Source: Eunapius fragilis
Lineage: Eukaryota; Porifera; Demospongiae; Spongillida; Spongillidae
Direction: 5' to 3'
Assembly (NCBI GenBank): GCA_963681505.1
Contig: OY811972.1
Span: 13,136,847-13,200,846 of the forward strand
DNA length: 64,000 bases
Positions 6,837-38,389 of the stretch are shown here, piece by piece. A program made the position numbers and the translations under genes. The stretch's first letter is position 1. Every line of letters starts with the position of its first letter. The notes under the pieces were generated by a model. It had not been told where the DNA came from and made no database searches. It worked only from the letters and a program-made list of their open reading frames with translations.

Positions 6837-7620
6837 ACCCACAGGGTAGGTGAGTACCTACATGTATGCCAACCAGGGACCCAACGTCACGCGCAGATTC
6901 TGAACACTGGGGTATGTGACCACAACTAACAAGCTACTTTCAAGCTCCCCTATGGAGATGGGTGACATTCTTGTGAGTTGCAAAGCACACTGAATCTGAC
7001 TCTGAGGTGTTTCATGTACCCACAGGGTAGGTGTGTACCTGTGCCAACCAGGGACCCAACGTCATGCGTGGATTTTGAACACTGGGGGAGTAACCACAAC
7101 TAATAAGTTCTTTCAAGCTGACCAGTGGAGATGGGTGCCATTCTTGTGAGTTGCAAAGCACACTGAATCTGACTCTGAGGTGTTTCATGTACCCACAGGG
7201 TAGGTGTGTACCTGTGCCAACCAGGGACCCAACATCACGCGCGGATTTTGAACACTGGGGGTGTAAACACAACTAATAAGTTACTTCAAGCTGATCTGAG
7301 GAGTGGGTACATAAAACACCTCAGAGTCTGCCTCTGTGTGCTTTGCAACTCACAAGAATGGCATCCATCTCCTCAGATCAGCTTGAAGTAACTTATTAGT
7401 TGTGTTTACAACCCCAGTGTTCAAAATCCGCGCGTAACGTTGGGTCCCTGGTTGGCACAGGTACACACCTACCTCAGAGTCAGATTCAGTGTGCTTTGCA
7501 ACACACAAGAATGGCACCCATCTTCCATGGACCCACAGGGTAGGTGTGTACCTATGCCAACCAGAGACCCAACGTCACGCATGGATTTTGAACACTAGGG
7601 GTGTGACCACAACTAAATAT
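6837..7620. repeat. left terminal repeat cluster of the YR retroelement
   Basis: Units of about 171 bp start near 6837, 7017 and 7188 with TACCCACAGGGTAGGTG and contain GGACCCAACGTCA, GAACACTGGGG and GTTGCAAAGCACACTGAA. From about 7304 to 7530 the same material appears in reverse orientation, then forward again to 7620. The same unit recurs at 11848-12140 beyond the recombinase gene, so these repeats bracket the element. The inverted arrangement is unusual for simple split direct repeats. Confidence 0.75.
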
Positions 7621-7689
7621 ATGTTTCCATCGGTTGAGTGCAGCGAATTAGATGGAAACTATGCTCCCTGCGGAATCCGGTATATGGGT

Positions 7690-7791
7690 AATGCACGTGA
7701 CTCATCCACGTGGTGGTATTTAAGTGTGAGTAGGTAGACTCTTCTTCAGTCTAAGCGTTCGTGCAGAGCCAGTAACTTTTATCGCAGCAGG
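7690..7791 (+). promoter_or_regulatory. putative retroelement promoter and leader
   Basis: A TATTTAAG box at about 7717 lies some 75 bp before the gag ATG at 7792. The leader word TCTAAGCGTTCGTGCA is shared in near-identical form with 50480-50500, which also has a TATA-like word upstream. Shared promoter-leader layout suggests a related element copy there. Confidence 0.4.
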
Positions 7792-8639
7792 ATGGAGCAA
7801 ATACTGGAGGAAATGCGGCGACTACGCGACGACGTTAAAGCATCTCAGGAGGAAGCGGCTCTACAGGTGGCCAGAAGCAGCAGGCGTGATCCCTATACTT
7901 TTAAAAGGAAGGGGAATGAGAACCAGCACGCCTTCAATGACGATGTGGAAGACAAGCTGGTGCAGGTGCAGGCACACCTCGGCAGGGTGGAAGCGGGAGA
8001 AGAGGGCACCAGGAGTGCCAGCGCGCTCGCCAAGGCGAAGGAAGCAGTTAAAGAAGGTAGGCAGCTTATTGCACGTCGCCAGAAGCTGCTAAAGCTGGCG
8101 GACCGTTCGGAGTTTGGATGGGCGGTGGTGGAGGAGTACATTGACGATGACCTGGCCGAAGACTCGGACGATGAGAAAGAATCGAAAGAGCTGAGCGGGC
8201 TGCGGAGAGAAAGATTTTTAAGAAGAGGAGAATGGAAGAAAAAGGGGCAGAAAAGGCAGATGGTATGGTGCAGCGGGTGGCAAGGGGGCAGCCTAGAGCC
8301 CCAGTAGAGAGGCCGCGTGGTGCTGTGCCGGCTGTGCGTGAGGAGCGGCCAGCCGGGTTCTCGGGAATCTGCTTCCAGTGCGGGGAGTTGGGGCACATGA
8401 GACGCGATTGCCCGAAAAGGTTGCCTGTGGCAACTGCGTATCCTTTGCTTGAGTTGGATGGGCACTTGCTGCATGTTGGGTTAGGTGGTGATTCGTGGAA
8501 TGTATCACCTGGTGGTGTTGACGACTGCATGCAGAGGTGCTGGGAAGTCCAGTCACCTGACTTTGGTGCTGTATCTGTAAGGGGTGGGCTTCGCCAATGT
8601 GTGGATTTTTGGAGGAAAGAGTTGTGTGCACCTCCATGA
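7792..8639 (+). pseudogene. Gag-like protein of YR retroelement, frameshifted
   Basis: The start is ATG 7792 (MEQILEEMRRLRDDVKASQE). An N-terminal coiled-coil-like acidic/basic region is followed by DRSEFGWAVVEEY and an Asp/Glu-rich DDLAEDSDDEKES stretch, a pattern I recall for Gag of DIRS/Ngaro-like elements. The frame changes near 8205-8235; in the second frame (8232-8639) there is a zinc knuckle, CFQCGELGHMRRDC, for nucleic-acid binding. The product then reaches TGA at 8637-8639, in the same frame as the RT downstream. The family normally has a tryptophan at this point before VLDTI, so TGA probably replaces TGG. Role: packaging of element RNA. Confidence 0.75.
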
Positions 8640-10463
8640 GTACTTGATACTATAACTAAAGGGTATGTTCTCCCCTTATTTTCAGAACCTACACCATACT
8701 CACGTCCTAACCAGCATTCTGCCCTAGCCAAACTAGATTTTGTAAATACAGCAGTCAGCGAGTTGCTTGTGGGTGGGTACATAGAGAGGACGGAAGGGCC
8801 CCCAATAGTATGTAGCCCTTTGTCCGTGGTAGCTAGTGGGTCAGGGAAGAAGCGGTTAGTAGTCAACTTGAGACATGTAAACCAATATTTGTGGAAACAG
8901 AAGTTCAAATACGAAGATCTCAGAGTTGCAATGATGCTATTCAACCCAGGTGAGTGGATGTTTACATTTGACCTGAAGTCAGGTTATCACCATATTGACA
9001 TAGTTCTGCATCATAGAAAGTACTTGGGTTTTGCATGGGGAGGGGAGTATTATAGGTTTGCAGTGCTACCATTTGGTTTAGCCTCAGCACCTTATGCATT
9101 TACAAAGATTTTGCATCCTTTAGTACGCTTATGGCGTAGTAAAGGCTTACGGGCCATTCTTTATTTGGATGATGGTATATGTGCAGTGGAGCATGAGGAA
9201 ACAGCAAAGATAGCCAGTCAATGGGTGCAAGACACACTGCGGCAAGCAGGCTTGGTGGCGAATGAGGCAAAGTGTGCATGGACGCCCTCCACAGTAGTTC
9301 AGTGGCTGGGCTTTAAAATTGATCTTTTAAAGGGGTGTATTTCGGTCCCAGAAGAAAAAATCATATTGCTGAAGACCATGTTGAGGACAGCAGTTGGGCA
9401 GAGGGGGCTTTGTGCTAAATGTGTAGCAAGCTTGGTAGGCAGGATAATATCTATGGGTATAGCATTGGGTCCCATTGCAAGGTTCATGACTAGAGAGCTA
9501 TATGCACTGCTGCAGGAAAGATATTCATGGTGTGACGGGTTGACTGTTTCACCAGGGGCTACATTGGGTTAGAGTTCTGGTATGATTCATTAATAGACTA
9601 TAATTCACAGCCAATTTGGCATAGCCCAGCTGCAGTGAGATTTGCATATTCAGATGCCAGCAATACTGGCTATGGTGGTTACATGGTAGAGCATGGCTTG
9701 CATGTAGCGCAGGGTAATTGGTCCCCAGAAGAGGCTCAGCAAAGTTCCACATGGCGGGAGTTGGTGGCGGTAGGCAGGGTGTTGGAATCAGTTGCCTCGA
9801 AGCTTGGTAATGGTAGGGTGCGATGGTTTACTGATAACCAAAATGTTGTTCGTATACTGACAGTAGGCAGTGGCAAGGAGCATTTGCATAAGGAGGCTGT
9901 TAAGATATTCCGATTATGCATGGGTCAAAATATCCGTTTAGAGCCTGAGTGGATCCCTAGAGAGAGGAATGAGTTAGCAGACTACATCAGCCGTATAATT
10001 GATAGGGATGATTGGTATCTGGATCCAACAGTATTTGCAGCATTGGATGACCAATGGGGCCCACATACGGTGGACAGATTTTCTAGCCACTACAATACGC
10101 AAGTGCATCGTTTAAATTCACGTTTTGCATGCCCAGGAACAGAAGCAGTAGATGCCTTTACAGTTCACTGGGGGGGGGGGGGGGGGGAACAATTGGTGGT
10201 GTCCCCCACCTATACTAGTACCTAGGGTGTTAAGGCATGCCAAGTTATGTGGAGCATTTGGCACCCTTATAGTTCCTTGTTGGGAGTCAGCCCCATATTG
10301 GCCATTATTGTGCCCGGATGGTGACAATCTTGCGCAATTTGTGAAGGGATTTTGTTTGTTGCCTGTGATGCCAGGACTATTCAAACATGGAAAGTCAGGA
10401 TCAGTGCTGTTTGAGGGTAACTCCCCTAATGCGGCGGTGTTTGCATTGCGGATTCAGTTTTGA
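8640..10463 (+). pseudogene. Pol of YR retroelement: reverse transcriptase, RNase H and C-terminal region
   Basis: From 8640 the frame reads VLDTITKGYVLPLFSEP and enters a reverse transcriptase with FTFDLKSGYHHI (first catalytic Asp), LPFGLASAP and the YLDDG catalytic box near 9165. A one-base shift near 9553-9568 moves to the frame of 9635-10225, which encodes RNase H: YSDASNTGYGGY, the Glu in WRELVAVG, FTDNQNVV and the trailing Asp in NELADYISR. A second shift falls in the G run at 10171-10188, after which NNWWCPPPILVPRVLRHA continues to the stop at 10461-10463. No methyltransferase domain is seen, favouring a Ngaro-like over a DIRS1-like element. Three breaks including the upstream TGA mean this copy cannot make an intact Pol. 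Confidence 0.85.
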
Positions 10464-10470
10464 TCTTAGT

Positions 10471-10672
10471 GGTCTGGAGGGCTAGCACTATATATTGGTG
10501 GGCGAAGCCTGGACCAATTAGTCTGGAGGGCTAGCATCAACAATTTGGTGAGCGAGGCCCAGACTGGATAGTCTGTAGGGCTAGCATCAAAGTGGTGTTG
10601 GTGGGCGAAGCCTAGACTAGTGAGCCTTGAGGGTTAGCATCAATACTGTATTGATGGGCGAAGCCTGGGCTC
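10471..10672 (+). ncRNA. array of four covarying hairpins between pol and recombinase
   Basis: Four head-to-tail units (10471-10515, 10520-10565, 10570-10618, 10622-10672) each fold into a hairpin. The outer stems are GGUCUGG/CCUGGACC, AGUCUGG/CCAGACU, AGUCU/AGACU and GAGCC/GGCUC: sequence differs but pairing is kept. The inner stems are CAUCAA/UUGGUG in two units, CACUA with UUGGUG in unit 1, and CAUCAAUA/UAUUGAUG in unit 4. Conserved unpaired-looking sides read GAGGGYUAG on the 5' side and GRGCGARGCC on the 3' side. Compensatory change with conserved internal sequence suggests a structured RNA or recombinase-recognised DNA, not a random minisatellite. No known RNA family is recognised. Confidence 0.6.
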
Positions 10673-10736
10673 GGATAAATGTTGTGGCAGGAATGCAGTA
10701 ATCATATACCATCTCTTCGCAGACATCCTCTCAGTA

Positions 10737-11717
10737 GGGGTGCTGCTGCTACTGAGGGACTCACAGGACCCGGACTTGCGTCGCCTTGCTGCAGAGCTAC
10801 CCGCAGTTGTGCTCGACAGCAGAGCAGATAGCACAACAAAGAAATACCTGGGTGCATTTCAAAGATGGAAGACATGGGCCGCAGCACACCAAGGGGTGCC
10901 TAGTTTCCCAGTACAGGAGGGTCATCTGGCCTTGTACATGGTACATCTCAGTGAGTCCACCCAATCTAAGGCAGCTGTCGAAGAGATAATGCATGCAGTA
11001 TCATGGCTACACAGAGTGTCGGGTCTCCAGCCACCAAATGCTTCCCCCTTAGTTCACACCACACTAGAGGGTCTGCAGCATAAATTAGCCAAGCCTAAGA
11101 AAAGTAAAGAACCCATAACTGTTGAAATACTGAAAGCTATGGTTGAGGCAGTAGGGCCTTCCCCCTCACTAACAGATGTTAGGTTTTTGGCTGTGTGCCT
11201 AGTTGCATTTGCGGGTTTTTTGCGTTGTGATGAACTGATAAAGTTGCGATGCAACGACATAGTGTTTAATGAACAGGGCATGGTGGTGAAGATAGTATCA
11301 AGCAAAACGGACCAGTTTAGAGAGGGTGCATCATTGGTTACAGGTACCTCAACTTGTCCTGTAGGCATGATGGAAAGATACTATACCATGGCAGGGCTAG
11401 TACCTGCCTCGCCTGAGAAGTTGTTCAGGGCAATAGTGCATACGAAAACAGGTGAACGGTTGAGGGAGAGTGGTGGACTTAGTTACTCTAGATTACGGGA
11501 ATTGCTGTCAGACAGGATTCAAGGGTTAGGCATGGACCCTAAGCAGTTTGGCATGCATAGTCTGCGAGCGGGTGGAGCAACAGCCGCAGCTAATGCAGGT
11601 GTGCCAGATAGATTATTTAAGAGGCATGGTCGCTGGAGATCAGAGTCAGACAAAGATGGCTATGTTAAGGACTCAGTAGAGAGGAGGCTCTCTGTTTCCA
11701 AGAGTCTTGGTATTTGA
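10737..11717 (+). CDS. tyrosine recombinase (integrase) of YR retroelement
   Basis: An open frame of about 326 codons ends at TGA 11715-11717. It opens LLLLRDSQDPDLRRLA, with an N-terminal SAM-like core-binding region (STTKKYLGAFQRWKTWAA), then the catalytic domain: Arg in FAGFLRCDELIKLR, HSLRAGGAT giving the His-x-x-Arg pair, and the nucleophile Tyr in DGYVKDSVERR. It would integrate element cDNA without target duplication. There is no upstream ATG in frame: TAG lies at 10734-10736 and the first candidate is GTG at 10740. A pyrimidine-rich tract ending CTCTCAGTAG suggests a splice acceptor at 10736/10737 instead. This is the only undamaged ORF of the element. Confidence 0.85.
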   Translation, partial: GVLLLLRDSQDPDLRRLAAELPAVVLDSRADSTTKKYLGAFQRWKTWAAAHQGVPSFPVQEGHLALYMVHLSESTQSKAAVEEIMHAVSWLHRVSGLQPPNASPLVHTTLEGLQHKLAKPKKSKEPITVEILKAMVEAVGPSPSLTDVRFLAVCLVAFAGFLRCDELIKLRCNDIVFNEQGMVVKIVSSKTDQFREGASLVTGTSTCPVGMMERYYTMAGLVPASPEKLFRAIVHTKTGERLRESGGLSYSRLRELLSDRIQGLGMDPKQFGMHSLRAGGATAAANAGVPDRLFKRHGRWRSESDKDGYVKDSVERRLSVSKSLGI

Positions 11718-11847
11718 TGATGCAAAAATTAATCCTATTATGCCCGTTCTTTGTTCTTCTATTGGTGTTGTTGTGTGATACTGGCTGCGTGCACAATGGA
11801 CGCTGCACAAAGTATGTGGTCAAGTGCATGGTACAGGGGTTTAGGAG

Positions 11848-12140
11848 GGAGTAAGTTCTTTCAAGCTGACCAGTGGAGACGGGTGCCATTGTTGTGAGTT
11901 GCAAAGCACACTGAATCTGACTCTGAGGTGTTTCATGTACCTACAGGGTAGGTGTGTATCTGTGCCAAACAGAGACCCAACGTCACTCCCGGATTTTGAA
12001 CACTGGGGGTGCGACCACAACTAATAAGTTTTTTTCAAGCTGTCCAGTGGAGATGGGTGCCAATCTGAGCTACCCACAAGGTAGGTGTGTATCTGTGCCA
12101 TCCAGGGACCCAACGTCATCCGGAGTAGTGGACTTGCTGA
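11848..12140. repeat. right terminal repeats of the YR retroelement
   Basis: One full and one partial copy of the approximately 171-bp unit found at 6837-7620, same orientation as its forward copies. With the left cluster this delimits an element of roughly 5.4 kb. Confidence 0.75.
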
Positions 12141-18271: not shown

Positions 18272-18379
18272 CTCACTATCCACACTTCCTTCAGACATTG
18301 TACATGTAGTGAGTGTCGCTATGAATAAAAGCGGTATCGTCGAGTCTCGCCGATACCTAATTATTAACGAACTGTCTAC

Positions 18380-18670
18380 AGAACCGGTACCGGCACTTTA
18401 TTAAATATAACTACCGAGCCGGTACCGGCACTCTAGTCAATTACTTTAGAGAGCCGGTACCGGCACTCTAGTCGATTACTTCAGAGAGCCGGTACCGGCA
18501 CTCTAGTCGATTACTTCAGAGAGCCGGTACCGGCACTCTAGTCGATTACTTCAGAGAGCCGGTACCGGCACTCTAGTCAGTTACTTTAGAGAGCCGGTAC
18601 CGGCACTCTAGTCAATTACTTAAGCGAGCCGGTACGGGACTCTAGTCTATTACTTTAGAGAGCCGGTACT
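18380..18670. repeat. left subterminal array of the MULE (35-bp units)
   Basis: Seven to eight units of 35 bp, each with the palindrome CCGGTACCGG followed by CACTCTAGTCGATTACTT-like text. The last two are eroded. The matching right array is at 23348-23715. Paired arrays at both ends are likely transposase-binding sites. Confidence 0.85.
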
Positions 18671-19167: not shown

Positions 19168-20795
19168 TTGTTCTTTACTACCGTCAACATACAGGGCTTG
19201 TTTGACATGTTGCCACACCAAAGAAAATTGTCCAAGGAGGAAACAATGGAAGTTGAGAGGCTATTAAGTTTGAAGGCAAACAAAAAGATGGTTAAAGATA
19301 AGTTAGAGCAGATGTCAGGAAAAATTGTTACTCTGAAAGATATTTCAAACATATCAACAAAGCAAGGTCATAAAAATACTAGGAATGACTTAACTGAAAC
19401 AGTGCGTAAACTAACTGAGAGATATGGTACGTTAATAATGTTTTGCTTAGATGGTATGTTGATGGCCTTTGTAAAATACATAATATACTTACACATTTAT
19501 TTATACTTATACAGTTGTACAATATAATATTGTCTTATTTGCTCTGTGAATTTTATACTAGTAGCATGTTTTTACTTGCAGGTGCATGTGTATATGTCAT
19601 AGTTGACAATGACAATGTTTTGCAAGGAATTTATTTCCAAGATCATGAAATGAGGCAATGTTTTTCTTCCTATCCTGAGCTAGTTTGTGTTGATGCGACA
19701 TATAAACTTATTGAGCTTCATTTTCCTCTTTATATAATGTTGGTTGAAGATGGCAATGGACAGAGTGAAATTGTAGCAGCATTTATGGTGTTACAAGAAA
19801 CAGACAGTACATTTTCCAAAATGGTTGATCTGTTCAAAAAGCACAATTCCTCATGGGAACATGTTCGCGTAATCATGACTGACAAAGATGTAACTGAAAG
19901 ATCAGTATTCTCTGCACAGATTCCATCAGCTAGACTTGTGATTTGTCTATTTCATACATTGCGCTCATTTCGCCGTGAAGTGACTCTAGAAAAAATGGGG
20001 ATAACCAGTGGACAACGAAATCTCTGTCTAGAGATAATGCAGCAGATGGCATATGCACATGATGAGGATGAATACATGGACCTATACCATAACTTTCAAG
20101 TGAATGCTCCTATTGCTGTGCTGAATTATTTCAATGAGCAGTGGCATTCAATTAGAGATCAGTGGTCAATGGGTTTAAAATACACCACTGGAAATTTTTT
20201 TAACACTACAAACAATAGACTAGAAAGTATAAATGCCAAACTTAAGTCTGTAATCTCACGATATTCCTCACTTGAAGAATTTGTGGACAAGTTCTTTTTG
20301 ATTTTGAGAGTCTTGAGATGTGAAAGAGATCACAAAGCTGCACTCTGTTCACAAAAGGTTCCTACCACATTTCATTCAGCTGCTGATGTATATTCAACCA
20401 AGTATATGCGATACCTAACTCCATATGCTTACAAGTTTGTTGAAAAACAGCTTCACCTCAGGAAACAAGTTGTAATAGTAATGCATAGCTGTAACTCTGA
20501 AGTGTATGAAGTCAAAATGGGGGTCACGTCCACCCATATTTTCAAAAATGTTACAATCAATCAATGTTGCTGCCACTTATGGGTATCAATGAAATTGCCA
20601 TGTTGCCACATTTTCTTTGTGAGAGAGACCCTAGGACTAGATCTTTTTGATGAATGTATTTGTGATCAACGTTGGACTATGCAGTATTATGAGTCCAATC
20701 AGCGTGTGTTTTTGACGAAGGGTGCATCACATTCAAATTCTGCACAAGTTAGTGTTGTTACACTTCCAGAAAAACGCAAAAAAGTTTTGTCTCAG
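19168..20795 (+). CDS. MULE transposase with SWIM zinc finger
   Basis: A first exon (GLFDMLPHQRKLSKEE to KLTERYG) ends near 19425; an intron of about 155 bp ends in CTTGCAG at 19581; the main exon runs to a CAG|GTACAT donor at 20795/20796. The catalytic core has Asp in VCVDATYKL (about 19692), Asp in VIMTDKDVTERSVF (about 19877) and Glu in NNRLESINAKLKS (about 20224). The SWIM finger is NQCCCHLWVSMKLPCCHIF (about 20560-20616). It is the DDE transposase of a Mutator-like element. The main exon has no internal stop over about 400 codons, although the N-terminal domain is damaged. Likely inactive or only recently dead. Confidence 0.85.
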
Positions 20796-20854
20796 GTACA
20801 TTACATTATATTTTATGCATGCACTTGATTTAAATCTTCTGTCCATATTGCAGT

Positions 20855-23347: not shown

Positions 23348-23715
23348 ATACCCGGTACCGGCTACTTGCGGTATTGCAGCAAAAGAACCGGTACCGATTT
23401 TCCAGCCAAAACTGTCTACGGACCCGGTACCGGCACTACATTTATTATATCTACAGAGCCGGTACCGGCACTATAACCATTTTGTAAGCTGCCGGTACCG
23501 GTTCTCTAGCCAAAACTGTCTACGGAACCGGTACCGGCACTACATTTATTATATCTACAGAGCCGGTACCGGCACTATAACCATTTTGTAAGCTGCCGGT
23601 ACCGGTTCTCTTGCCAAAACTGTCTACGGAACCGGTACCGGCACTACATTTATTAAATCTACAGAGCCGGTACCGGTACTATAGCCATTTTTTAGGCTGC
23701 CGGTACCGGCTCTCT
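23348..23715. repeat. right subterminal array of the MULE
   Basis: About ten CCGGTACCGG palindromes spaced roughly 35-40 bp, organised in three higher-order units of about 115 bp containing GCACTACATTTATTA and CTAGCCAAAACTGTCTA. Complements the left array at 18380-18670 and ends the element near 23720-23780. Confidence 0.85.
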
Positions 23716-23799
23716 AGCCACAGCCAATTATTAAACATCGCCGATTATCGATACAGGATGCGATACAGGATATGCATCGACGATCTCGAGATCGTTTCC

Positions 23800-33205: not shown

Positions 33206-33404
33206 ACACTTGCATACTGAACATCGGCGCGCGCGGTCTAAGCTATATAGGCATATGTAGTAAACAAGGGAGACTCAAACATGGCTTCGGTACCTACTGC
33301 CAGGGATTCGAGTGCAAACAAGGTTACACTGGTGCAGCTGATTAGGGTTACGTCCCTTCAAAGAACAAGGTATAAAAAATCGAAGCGGCGCGCCAATACC
33401 AGTG

Positions 33405-34468
33405 ACTCGCAGAGATAGTGTGAGCACTCCAGAGTACTTCAGGTATATAGCCTCACATTCCTATGCATGTTGTCTGCCCATACAGCCATATACTTGTGAA
33501 CCTACATTTAATGGAGTCAAGATGGCCGAATATCTTCATCCAGGAAAGGGTGTGGTCAAAACCTTGATCCACAGAGATAGTGTGAGCACTCCAGAGTACT
33601 TCTGGTGTATAGCCTCACATTCCTATGCATGTTGTCTGCCCATACAGGCATATACTTGTGAGCCTACATTTAATGCAGTCAAGATGGCCGAATATCTTCA
33701 TCCTGGAAGGGGTGTGGTCAAAACCAGTGATCCACAGAGATAGTGTGAGCACTCCAGAGTACTTCTGGTGTATAGCCTCACATTCCTATGCATGTTGTCT
33801 GCCCATACAGGCATATACTTGTGAGCCTACGTTTAATGCAGTCAAGATGGCCGAATATCTTCATCCAGGAAAGGGTGTGGTCAAAACTAGTGATACACAG
33901 AGATAGTGTGAGCACTCCAGAGTACTTCTGGTGTATAGCCTCACATTCCTATGCATGTTGTCTGCCCATACAGGCATATGCTTGTGAACCTACATTTAAT
34001 GGAGTCAAGATGGCCGAATATCTTCATCCAGGAAGGGGTGTGGTCAAAACCAGTGATCCACAGAGATAGTTTGAGCACTCCAGAGTACTTCTGGTGTATG
34101 GCCTCACATTCCTATGCATGTTGTCTGCCCATACAGGCATATGCTTGTGAACCTACATTTAATGGAGTCATAATGGCCGAATATCTTCATCCAGGAAAGG
34201 GTGTGGTCAAAACCAGTGATCCACAGAGATAGTGTGAGCACTCCAGAGTACTTCTGGTGTATAGCCTCACATTGCTATGCATGTTGTCTGCCCATACAGG
34301 CATGTACATGTGATTCCTACATTTATTGGAGTCAAGATGGCTGAATATCTTCATCCAGGAAGGGGTGTGGTCAAACCCAGGGATCCACAGAGATAGTGTG
34401 AGCACTCCAGAGTACTGCAGGTGTATAGCCTCACATTCCTATGCAAGTTGTCTGCCAATACAGGCATT
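33405..34468 (+). repeat. 163-bp tandem array, left (about 6.5 copies)
   Basis: Head-to-tail 163-bp units containing AGATAGTGTGAGCACTCCAG, ATGCATGTTGTCTGCCCATA and AAGATGGCCGAATATCTTCA. 163 is not a multiple of three, so the frame rotates and the overlapping ORFs are shadows. The same unit is present in the opposite orientation at 35655-38385. Confidence 0.95.
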
Positions 34469-35654: not shown

Positions 35655-38385
35655 GTCAACATGCATAGCAATGTGAGGCTATACACCTGCAGTACTCTGG
35701 AGTGCTCACACTATCTCAGTGAATCACTGGTTTTGACCACACCCCTTCCTGGATGAAGATATTCGGCCATCTTGACTGCATTAAATGTAGGCTCAAAAGT
35801 ATATGCCTGTATGGGCAGACAACATGCATAGGAATATGAGGCTATACACCTGCAGTACTCTGGAGTGCTCACACTATCTCTGTGGATCACAGGCTTTGAC
35901 CACACCCCTTCCTGGATGAAGACATTCGGCCATCTTGACTCCATTAAATGTAGGCTCACAAGTATACGCCTGTATGGGCAGACAACATGCATAGGAATGT
36001 GAGGCTATACACCAGAAGTACTCTGGAGTGCTCACACTATCTCTGTGAATCACTGGTTTTGACCACACCCCTTCCTGGATGAAGATATTCGGCCATCTGG
36101 ACTGCATTAAATGTAGGCTCACAAGTATATGCCTGTATGGGCAGACAACATGCATAGGAATGTGAGGCTATACACACCTGCAGTACTCTGGAGTGCTCAC
36201 ACTATCTCTGTGGATCACAGGTTTTGACCACACCCCTTCCTGGATGAAGACATTCGGCCATCTTGACTGCATTAAATGTAGGCTCACAAGTATATGCCTG
36301 TATGGGCAGACAACATGCATAGTAATGTGAGGCTATACACCAGAAGTACTCTGGAGTGCTCACACTATCTCTGTGGATCACTGGTTTTGACCACACCCCT
36401 TCCTGGATGAAGATATTTCGGCCATCTTGACTCCATTAAATGTAGGCTCACAAGTATATGCCTGTATGGGCAGACAACATGCATAGGAATGTGAGGCTAT
36501 ACACCAGAAGTACTCTGGAGTGCTCACACTATCTGTGGGGATCCCTGGGTTTGACCACACCCCTTCCTGGATGAAGACATTCGGCCATCGTGACTGCATT
36601 AAATGTAGGCTCACAAGTATATGCCTGTATGGGCAGACAACATGCATATAGGAATGTGAGGCTATACACCAGAAGTACTCTGGAGTGCTCACACTATCTC
36701 TGTGGATCACAGGTTTTGACCACACCCCTTCCTGGATGAAGACATTCGGCCATCTTGACTGCATTAAATGTAGGCTCACAAGTATATGCCTGTATGGGCA
36801 GACAACATGCATAGGAATGTGAGGCTATACACCTGCAGTACTCTGGAGTGCTCACACTATCTATGGGGATCCCTGTGTTTGACCACACCCCTTCCTGAAT
36901 GAAGATATTTCGGCCATCTTGACTCCATTAAATGTAGGCTCACAAGTATATGCCTGTATGGGCAGACAACATGCATAGGAATGTGAGGCTATACACCAGA
37001 AGTACTCTGGAGTGCTCACACTATCTATGGGGATCCCTGTGTTTGACCACACCCCTTCCTGAATGAAGATATTTCGGCCATCTTGACTCCATTAAATGTA
37101 GGCTCACAAGTATATGCCTGTATGGGCAGACAACATGCATAGGAATGTGAGGCTATACACCAGAAGTACTCTGGAGTGCTCACACTATCTATGGGGATCC
37201 CTGGGTTTGACCACACCCCTTCCTGGATGAAGATATTTCGGCCATCTTGACTCCATTAAATGTAGGCTCACAAGTAAATGCCTGTATGGGCAGACAACAT
37301 GCATAGGAATGTGAGGCTATATACCAGAAGTACTCTGGAGTGCTCACACTATCTCTGTGGATCACAGGTTTTGACCACACCCCTTCCTGGATGAAGACAT
37401 TCGGCCATCTTGACAGCATTAAATGTAGGCTCACAAGTATATGCCTGTATGGGCAGACAACATGCATAGGAATGTGAGGCTATACACCAGAAGTACTCTG
37501 GAGTGCTCACACTATCCCTGTGGATCCCTGGGTTTGACCACACCCCTTCCTGGATGAAGATATTCGGCCATCTTGACTCCATTACATGTAGGCTCACAAG
37601 TATATGCCTGTATGGGCAGACAACATGCATAGGAATGTGAGGTTTTACACCAGAAGTACTCTGGAGTGCTCACACTATCCCTGTGGATCACTGGGTTTGA
37701 CCACACCCCTTCCTGGATGAAGATATTCGGCCATCTTGACTCCATTAAATGTAGGCTCACAAGTATATGCCTGTATGGGCAGACATCATGCATAGGAATG
37801 TGAGACTATACACCTGCAGTACTCTGGAGTGCTCACACTATCTCTGTGGATCACTGGTTTTGACCACACCCCTTCCTGGATGAAGATATTCGGCCATCTT
37901 GACTGCATTAAATGTAGGCTCACAAGTATATGCCTGTATGGGCAGACAACATGCATAGCAATGTGACGCTATACACCTGCAGTACTCTGGAGTGCTCACA
38001 CTATCTCTGTGGATCCCTGGGTTTGACCACACCCCTTCCTGGATGAAGATATTCGGCCATCTTGACTGCATTAAATGTAGGCTCACAAGTATATGCCTGT
38101 ATGGGCAGACAACATGCATAGGAATGTGAGGCTATACACCTGCAGTAATCTGGAGTGCTCACACTATCTCTGTGGATCCCTGGGTTTGACCACACCCCTT
38201 CCTGGATGAAGATAATCGGCCATCTTGACTGCATTAAATGTAGGCTCACAAGTATATGCCTGTATGGGCAGACAACTTGCATAGGAATGTGAGGTTATAC
38301 ACCTGCAGTACTCTGGAGTGCTCACACTATCTCTGTGGATCCCTGGGTTTGACCACACCCCTTCCTGGATGAAGATATTCAGCCG
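35655..38385 (-). repeat. 163-bp tandem array, right, inverted (about 17 copies)
   Basis: Same unit as the left array on the opposite strand. Variants such as CTGTGGATCACTGG versus ATGGGGATCCCTGTG occur in runs of adjacent units (for example 36860-37220), showing local amplification. Some units are 164 bp. Confidence 0.95.
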
Positions 38386-38389
38386 TCTT

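Follow-up and report, generated by a model that had tools for sequence, protein, structure and literature searches.

Tandem hairpins in the intron of a Pat1-like retrotransposon from the sponge Eunapius fragilis, a possible cis-acting element of the unspliced genomic RNA

Retroviral packaging signals are hairpins present only in unspliced RNA, where they lie behind the splice donor and work with a zinc-knuckle Gag. Constitutive transport elements (CTEs) of simple retroviruses include the CTE of Mason-Pfizer monkey virus and the MER11 element of the simian endogenous retrovirus SERV-K (excerpts of PMC11379458). The RNA stability element of Rous sarcoma virus (RSV) lies immediately behind the gag stop codon (excerpts of PMC2925335). 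In Caenorhabditis elegans, the retroelement Cer1 requires the protein CERV for export of its unspliced genomic RNA (excerpts of PMC10309623). Here we describe a tandem array of hairpins in a stretch of 64,000 nucleotides from Eunapius fragilis (contig OY811972.1, positions 13,136,847 to 13,200,846, forward strand; the whole stretch is referred to as the window). The array lies between pol and the recombinase exon of a retrotransposon that fits the Pat1-like elements (PAT group, DIRS order).

Tandem repeats also arise inside plant long terminal repeat retrotransposons (PMC7004042, PMC3648361); the array is likewise an intra-element tandem repeat, but it has a fixed intronic place and conserved pairing. 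It differs from a retroviral packaging signal in standing at the 3′ end of the intron, and spliced RNA is apparently mobilised too. Like CTEs, it is a structured stretch restricted to the intron-containing RNA of a retroelement (excerpts of PMC11379458), so that a role in export is a candidate by analogy. Unlike CTEs, it belongs to a tyrosine recombinase (YR) retrotransposon, is a tandem array, has a lineage-specific sequence and matches no Rfam family. With the RSV stability element it shares a place directly behind the stop codon of an unspliced message (excerpts of PMC2925335). It departs from that element in consisting of tandem hairpins and in being tied to the 3′ splice site as well, and a role against decay is again a candidate by analogy. 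As in Cer1, an invertebrate retroelement would need to export its unspliced genomic RNA; Cer1 uses a protein, whereas the candidate here is a cis element (excerpts of PMC10309623).

The reading we favour, with a probability of roughly 0.45, is that the array acts in cis on the unspliced genomic RNA and aids its escape from splicing, nuclear retention or decay. The retrotransposon would yield unspliced RNA, serving Gag-Pol and reverse transcription, and spliced RNA, in which the start of gag is joined to the recombinase exon. The array would be placed wholly in the intron, after the pol stop and upstream of the branch-point region. A row of protein-binding hairpins would keep part of the transcripts unspliced and let the unspliced RNA exit the nucleus and survive, as retroviral transport and stability elements do. 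The array forms hairpins, keeps its position and persists across lineages; we infer that the hairpins bind a protein and that the unspliced RNA thereby escapes splicing, retention or decay. Support comes from covariation and a sense-strand bias in the window's own unit family (F1), fixed placement, excess folding in 24/25 loci, descent along the reverse transcriptase (RT) tree and compensatory changes in a stem, H2, compared between unit families. Relatives of the element are abundant, with at least 130 recombinase matches and at least 148 RT matches. The analysis used the best 30 of the 130 recombinase loci and the best 30 of the 148 RT loci, many of which are the same elements, and all comparisons were made within one genome (219 Mb).

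Four tandem hairpin units were confirmed on the + strand at 10470–10672. The outer and inner stems named by an earlier reading of the window, made from the sequence only, are present and pair in all four.

10470..10516, + strand: hairpin unit 1, with P1 UGGUCU/GGACCA, P2 GGGCU/AGCCU and P3 of the CACUA/UGGUG type
10519..10566, + strand: hairpin unit 2
10569..10619, + strand: hairpin unit 3, the weakest alone (z −0.49)
10622..10672, + strand: hairpin unit 4, with P1 GAGCCU/GGGCUC and P3 CAUCAAUA/UAUUGAUG

Each unit contains three helices, P1 (AGUCU/AGACU type), P2 (GGGCU/AGCCU) and P3 (CAUCAA/UUGGUG type). From unit 1 to unit 4 the outer stems are UGGUCU/GGACCA, UAGUCU/AGACUG, UAGUCU/AGACUA and GAGCCU/GGGCUC, and the inner stems are of the CACUA/UGGUG type, CAUCAA/UUGGUG (twice) and CAUCAAUA/UAUUGAUG. 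GAGGGYUAG and GRGCGARGCC had been taken for the two sides of an internal loop. They are not wholly loop: GGGCU/AGCCU pairs and covaries, which makes this part a third helix, P2. The P2 series is complete, with C-G, U-G and U-A at one pair and U-A, U-G and C-G at the next. Pairing between neighbouring units through AGACU/AGUCU was considered and rejected; pairing within units fits better because unit 4 pairs with itself only.

The four-unit stretch folds at z −3.55, and 0/200 shuffles were equally stable. Folded singly on the sense strand, units 1 to 4 gave z −2.06, −1.93, −0.49 and −2.37. The F1 alignment holds 13 units, 12 of them distinct: four each from the window and locus L002, and one each from L003, L010, L014, L039 and L044 (the L051 unit is identical to that of L014). 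In this alignment 95.9% of cells pair, compared with 88.0 in shuffles. Double compensatory changes occur at 7/17 pairs, spread over 26 cells (10.1 ± 2.8 in shuffles, none of 500 reaching 26). Covariation, measured against shuffles and not by R-scape, is 0.437 (shuffles 0.270 ± 0.026; 0/500) and drops to 0.036–0.123 when the pairing is slid by 1–3 columns. All 13 rows go back to a small number of units and elements and therefore represent few independent events. The number of pairs with a double change is not beyond chance (65/500 shuffles reach 7), and neither is the number of further pair types (485/500 shuffles reach 15). Covariation is thus present in F1 by our own shuffle test within the one genome, and the selected structure that had been claimed, with pairing kept through compensatory changes, is borne out.

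Non-Watson-Crick cells in F1 comprise 26 G-U, 3 A-C and 5 others. Shuffles gave 40.1 G-U and 17.1 A-C, and 0/500 had three or fewer A-C. The folding energy of the alignment is −14.55 sense vs −8.77 antisense. The excess of G-U over A-C (26:3) and the lower sense energy point to sense RNA for F1. Stem counting without an alignment was uninformative about strand (G-U 166 vs 163.8 in shuffles; A-C 34 vs 52.4) since on the G+T-rich sense strand shuffles reach an equal number of G-U pairs.

The position of the array within the element was defined by spliced genomic copies. The donor 8056/8057 in gag and the acceptor 10722/10723 of the window copy are the sites joined in loci L005 and L006. These loci contain neither pol nor array, and the start of gag runs into the recombinase as ...GTTAAAGAAG followed directly by ACATCC. 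Their recombinase is 98% identical to that of the window copy; L005 and L006 share 2,985 identical bases and represent one event, duplicated.

7617..11851, + strand: retrotransposon copy, inserted in a 173-bp tandem repeat; target duplication absent; stops at B1, without A2-B2
7617..7782, + strand: 5′ terminal repeat A1, delimited by the A1/A2 match in L006
7792..8056, + strand: gag first exon, joined to the recombinase in spliced copies
8057..10722, + strand: inferred intron, 2666 nt, with GTAGGC at its start and CTCTTCGCAG at its end; contains pol, the array and the remainder of gag
8763..9572, + strand: reverse transcriptase open reading frame (PF00078, 4.4e-21)
10461..10463, + strand: pol stop codon; the array called by Tandem Repeats Finder (TRF) begins 9 nt later
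10723..11717, + strand: tyrosine recombinase exon (PF00589, 2.9e-6)

The domains on either side (PF00078, PF00589) confirm that the array sits between pol and the recombinase of a YR retroelement, as the sequence-only reading had it. The window array is wholly intronic, with its end some 50 nt upstream of the 3′ splice site; this narrows its function to the unspliced RNA. As for a CTE, it lies inside the intron of an unspliced RNA, splicing being deduced from genomic copies. An acceptor (pyrimidine-rich stretch and [CT]AG) is present in 25/25 unspliced recombinase loci, at the same locus coordinate in 21/25 and shifted by match start or a small indel in the other four. In 20/27 RT loci with a gag match the donor GT occupies the expected base; in the other 7, GGTA occurs within about 22 nt.

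Intron-less loci make up 5/30 recombinase loci (L005, L006, L007, L009, L030) and belong to three lineages. A1 and A2 are present in 5/5 and B1/B2 in 4/5. Because these copies join the start of gag to the recombinase, the recombinase is apparently made from spliced RNA as a fusion to the start of Gag. To judge from the same genomic copies, spliced RNA can apparently itself be reverse-transcribed and integrated. An array that accompanies the intron and is missing from spliced copies that are still mobile favours a role in the fate of the unspliced RNA, since this distribution is expected if only that RNA needs the array. The RNA element suggested by the sequence-only reading is probably right.

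In the intron-less copies the gag-recombinase frame is still open (440, 440, 456, 348-class and 444 aa for the better ones) and the terminal repeats are full; these copies could be a non-autonomous lineage helped by full elements. L005 and L006 were also considered as an autonomous Crypton-like element; this was ruled out, as both carry A1 and A2 and represent the element itself in spliced form.

Arrays recur at this position in relatives of the same genome. In 22/25 unspliced recombinase loci TRF called a tandem array in the interval from pol to the acceptor; the remaining three have one window-type unit each (L010, L014) or long imperfect repeats (L029). An array or unit was assigned in 28/30 RT loci, 23 by TRF, 3 by covariance model and two (L046, L055) by eye, and in the other two (L035, L054) deletions have removed the interval. 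The distance from array end to acceptor is 52–107 nt (median 66, n=22), and that from pol stop to array start is 6–108 nt in 19/20 loci measured; in L025 it is 874 nt, with other DNA between. Placement immediately downstream of the stop codon, as in the RSV-type stability element, thus applies to 19/20 loci. Mapped onto an RT tree of the 30 loci, the 13 array labels require 12 changes, the minimum for that number, and 0/200 shuffles were as low. Family F4 alone needs two changes, because the deleted copy L054 falls inside it. The window copy, which has a long branch, falls next to the lineage that carries window-type units singly (support 88/92, not starred). On these sequences, each lineage inherits its own array.

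About twelve unit families, grouped by us, were distinguished; they differ in sequence and length and are built of stem-loops. One combines AGCC-UUUU-GGCU with GUCGAU-CAGUGU-AUCGAC, another AUUGACC-AGUG-GGUCAAU with CUGCC-UGGG-GGCAG. Two stem-loops alternate in most families, while F3 and F8 repeat one kind, and an AGCC...GGCU hairpin is common to 9/12 families by eye. Compared between families, stem H2 shows compensatory changes at 2/6 pairs, in 11 cells vs 5.3 in shuffles (0/500), and covariation of 0.362 vs 0.268 in shuffles (1/500); the number of compensatory H2 pairs is not beyond shuffles (389/500). The unit alignments of F3, F6 and F9 are poor. F3 and F9 carry no covariation claim, and F6 was used through its H2 arms only, rows with gaps in the arms being dropped. 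Within the window, three AGCC-5-GGCT hairpins in succession were not found. Regular-expression counts under-recovered hairpins and support no claim; in the accompanying stem-versus-loop test, p was 1.0 for H2 and 0.009 for H1.

Folding was followed along 25 loci in 80-nt segments. The main dip lies −400 to −120 from the acceptor on both strands, with mean z down to −1.75 sense and −2.75 antisense. Weaker dips occur elsewhere, for example at +400 (−0.65, −1.17) and at −1160 antisense (−0.99). The array interval folds lower than the locus's own control segments in 24/25 loci (Wilcoxon p 1.2e-7), the exception being L025. The stronger antisense z arises at least partly because G+T-rich sense shuffles pair through G-U, and z therefore does not reveal the strand. 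A perfect-stem test on one unit per family gave p <0.05 in F2, F3, F5, F6, F7b and F9 and was not significant in F1 unit 1 (0.34), F4 (0.28), F7, F8 and F11. The combined Fisher p of 3e-9 overstates the significance, since hairpins are shared between F5 and F6 and between F7 and F7b. The same test on 19 other tandem repeats of the window gave 0/19 below 0.05 (lowest 0.083). The energy of unit consensuses reached z < −2 on at least one strand in 9/13 units, the others being F1 (TRF consensus), F7, F8 and F11. Among the other tandem repeats of the window 4/19 did so, two of them with palindromes; hairpin-rich tandem repeats are not unique to this element.

Several observations weigh against an element of the unspliced RNA. 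Copy number varies, from one unit in L010 and L014 to about 18 in L020. The perfect-stem test is significant on its own in 6/11 families. Between families, H2 has 9 G-U vs 6 A-C. Alignment energy favours the sense strand in F4, F5, F7, F8 and F9 and the antisense strand in F2, F3, F6 and F7b, several of these alignments being poor. With strand evidence so mixed, the RNA reading rests on F1, F4 (−12.3 sense vs −3.8 antisense) and the link with the intron. A host protein as reader would also be expected to bring more sequence conservation between families.

Were the array instead a packaging signal, the element's own Gag zinc knuckle would bind the intronic hairpins and select the unspliced RNA, and hairpin sequence would co-evolve with Gag in each lineage. 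We regard this as possible but doubtful. Confinement to the intron resembles retroviral packaging signals behind the donor, Gag has a zinc knuckle, the lineage-specific unit sequences follow the RT tree, and each RNA carries many hairpin copies. Yet the array-less spliced copies, with A1 and A2 in all five and B1/B2 in four, must apparently have been reverse-transcribed and integrated. This weakens the packaging or priming signal proposed from the sequence in its strictly required form, whereas leaky packaging is compatible with it. A related and equally tentative idea is that the arrays are lineage-specific RNA identity tags read by each element's own Gag, which would mark its own unspliced genome against spliced RNAs and sister families; such tags would turn over quickly while the array architecture persists. 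A shield that hides the pol stop codon in unspliced RNA from nonsense-mediated decay, by analogy with the RSV stability element, appears unlikely. The start of the array 6–108 nt after the pol stop in 19/20 loci and the long stretch behind that stop in unspliced RNA would suit it, and the RSV element, minimally 155 nt, is directly behind the gag stop (excerpts of PMC2925335). However, the distance to the 3′ splice site is also kept fixed, the noncoding stretch is the sole place without coding constraint, so that proximity to the stop may be incidental, and the shield overlaps with the reading favoured here.

That the array has no function, being a hairpin minisatellite that expands by slippage in the one stretch without coding constraint, with a new unit amplified in each lineage, seems rather improbable. 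The variable copy number and the strong folding (z < −2 on at least one strand) of 4/19 other window repeats, two with palindromes, would be expected of such a repeat. It sits poorly with double compensatory changes between units of one array, between elements and between families, with the fixed placement, and with perfect stems at p <0.05 in 6/11 families vs 0/19 other window repeats. We consider an array acting at the DNA level, as recombinase-binding sites or cruciforms, very unlikely. Inverted repeats of several families fold on both strands, and H2, with 9 G-U vs 6 A-C, shows little of the bias seen in F1. The 26 G-U vs 3 A-C and the sense energies of F1 (−14.55 vs −8.77) and F4 speak against it, the units are unlike the inverted repeat of A1 by eye, and array-less spliced copies integrated nonetheless. 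The recombinase-binding array that the sequence-only reading had also offered is accordingly disfavoured for F1 and keeps some ground in several other families that lack a sense preference.

The array was also considered as a known RNA family. Rfam 15 covariance models gave no match at gathering score in the window, and at a relaxed level only mir-320 (E 0.76) and sR21 (E 9.2) appeared at 10440–10740, both far below cut-offs; with nothing convincing at either level, this was ruled out. Introns, splicing and hairpins go unmentioned in PMC3266345, PMC3783388 and PMC9210276, and the few mentions in PMC4157794, PMC6681497 and PMC8547959 concern other matters. The open literature searched, older subscription papers being outside its scope, contains no account of a DIRS/PAT-type split between recombinase message and genomic RNA. 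This genome supplies copies that record a gag-recombinase splice, together with a structured region that, in the unspliced lineages examined, is limited to that intron; its sequence turns over but its hairpins persist. If confirmed, DIRS-order retrotransposons would possess an equivalent of the transport, stability or packaging elements of retroviruses, and about twelve natural array versions could be compared for what a binding partner reads. In mammals, LAP2alpha exons derive from a DIRS1-like gag and are alternatively spliced, and the element is inferred to have brought the splice acceptor (excerpts of PMC4495291). Splicing signals inside DIRS-order elements may, on that account, be more widespread.

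Assignment of the host to the Pat1-like elements is based on domains and repeat layout. RT and tyrosine recombinase occur in one element, as in Pat1-like elements, and relatives have split direct repeats A1...B1-A2-B2, with A1/A2 of at least 165 nt in 9/13 element pairs and a partial 81 nt in one more. The pol of the window copy is broken over several frames. Its RNase H-like match (RVT_3, 3.9e-4) is just below the curated cut-off. The Gag zinc knuckle (PF00098) scores 1.4e-7 in the window copy and 6.8e-6 in L043. For the methyltransferase domain that Pat1-like elements have behind RNase H, the matches were weak (Dam-like, PF05869; L043 4.4e-6, 26.9 bits vs a cut-off of 28.1; window 0.008). 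Used as a DNA query against the genome, the array matched only itself, L002 (96%) and L003 (83%). Among other organisms, the recombinase alignment found no relative in collections of viral contigs and genome contigs, and phage records searched with the array gave nothing beyond a 23-base match at E 4.

At its start A1 (7617–7782) carries an inverted repeat that reads GTTTCCATC...GATGGAAAC in the window copy and GTTTCTGTC...GACAGAAAC in its relatives (L007, L020, L024, L047). The changes are paired around a partly conserved spacer, and the repeat is a candidate recombinase core site. A short derivative without gag-pol, L002:1517–1980, is embedded in other retroelement sequence; it keeps the array of four units, the acceptor and, from the recombinase, a few starting bases and the 3′ end.

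Elsewhere in the window, two tandem arrays of palindromic CCGGTACCGG-bearing units (18376–18669 and 23388–23720) flank a Mutator-like element (MULE)-type transposase frame at 19443–20825 (PF10551, 3.7e-17; PF21056, 5.2e-40). The two arrays resemble the subterminal repeats of a DNA transposon, MULE-like and about 5.3 kb long. A 163-bp tandem repeat forms two further arrays, at 33394–34467 and 35657–38389, in opposite orientation and about 1.2 kb apart.
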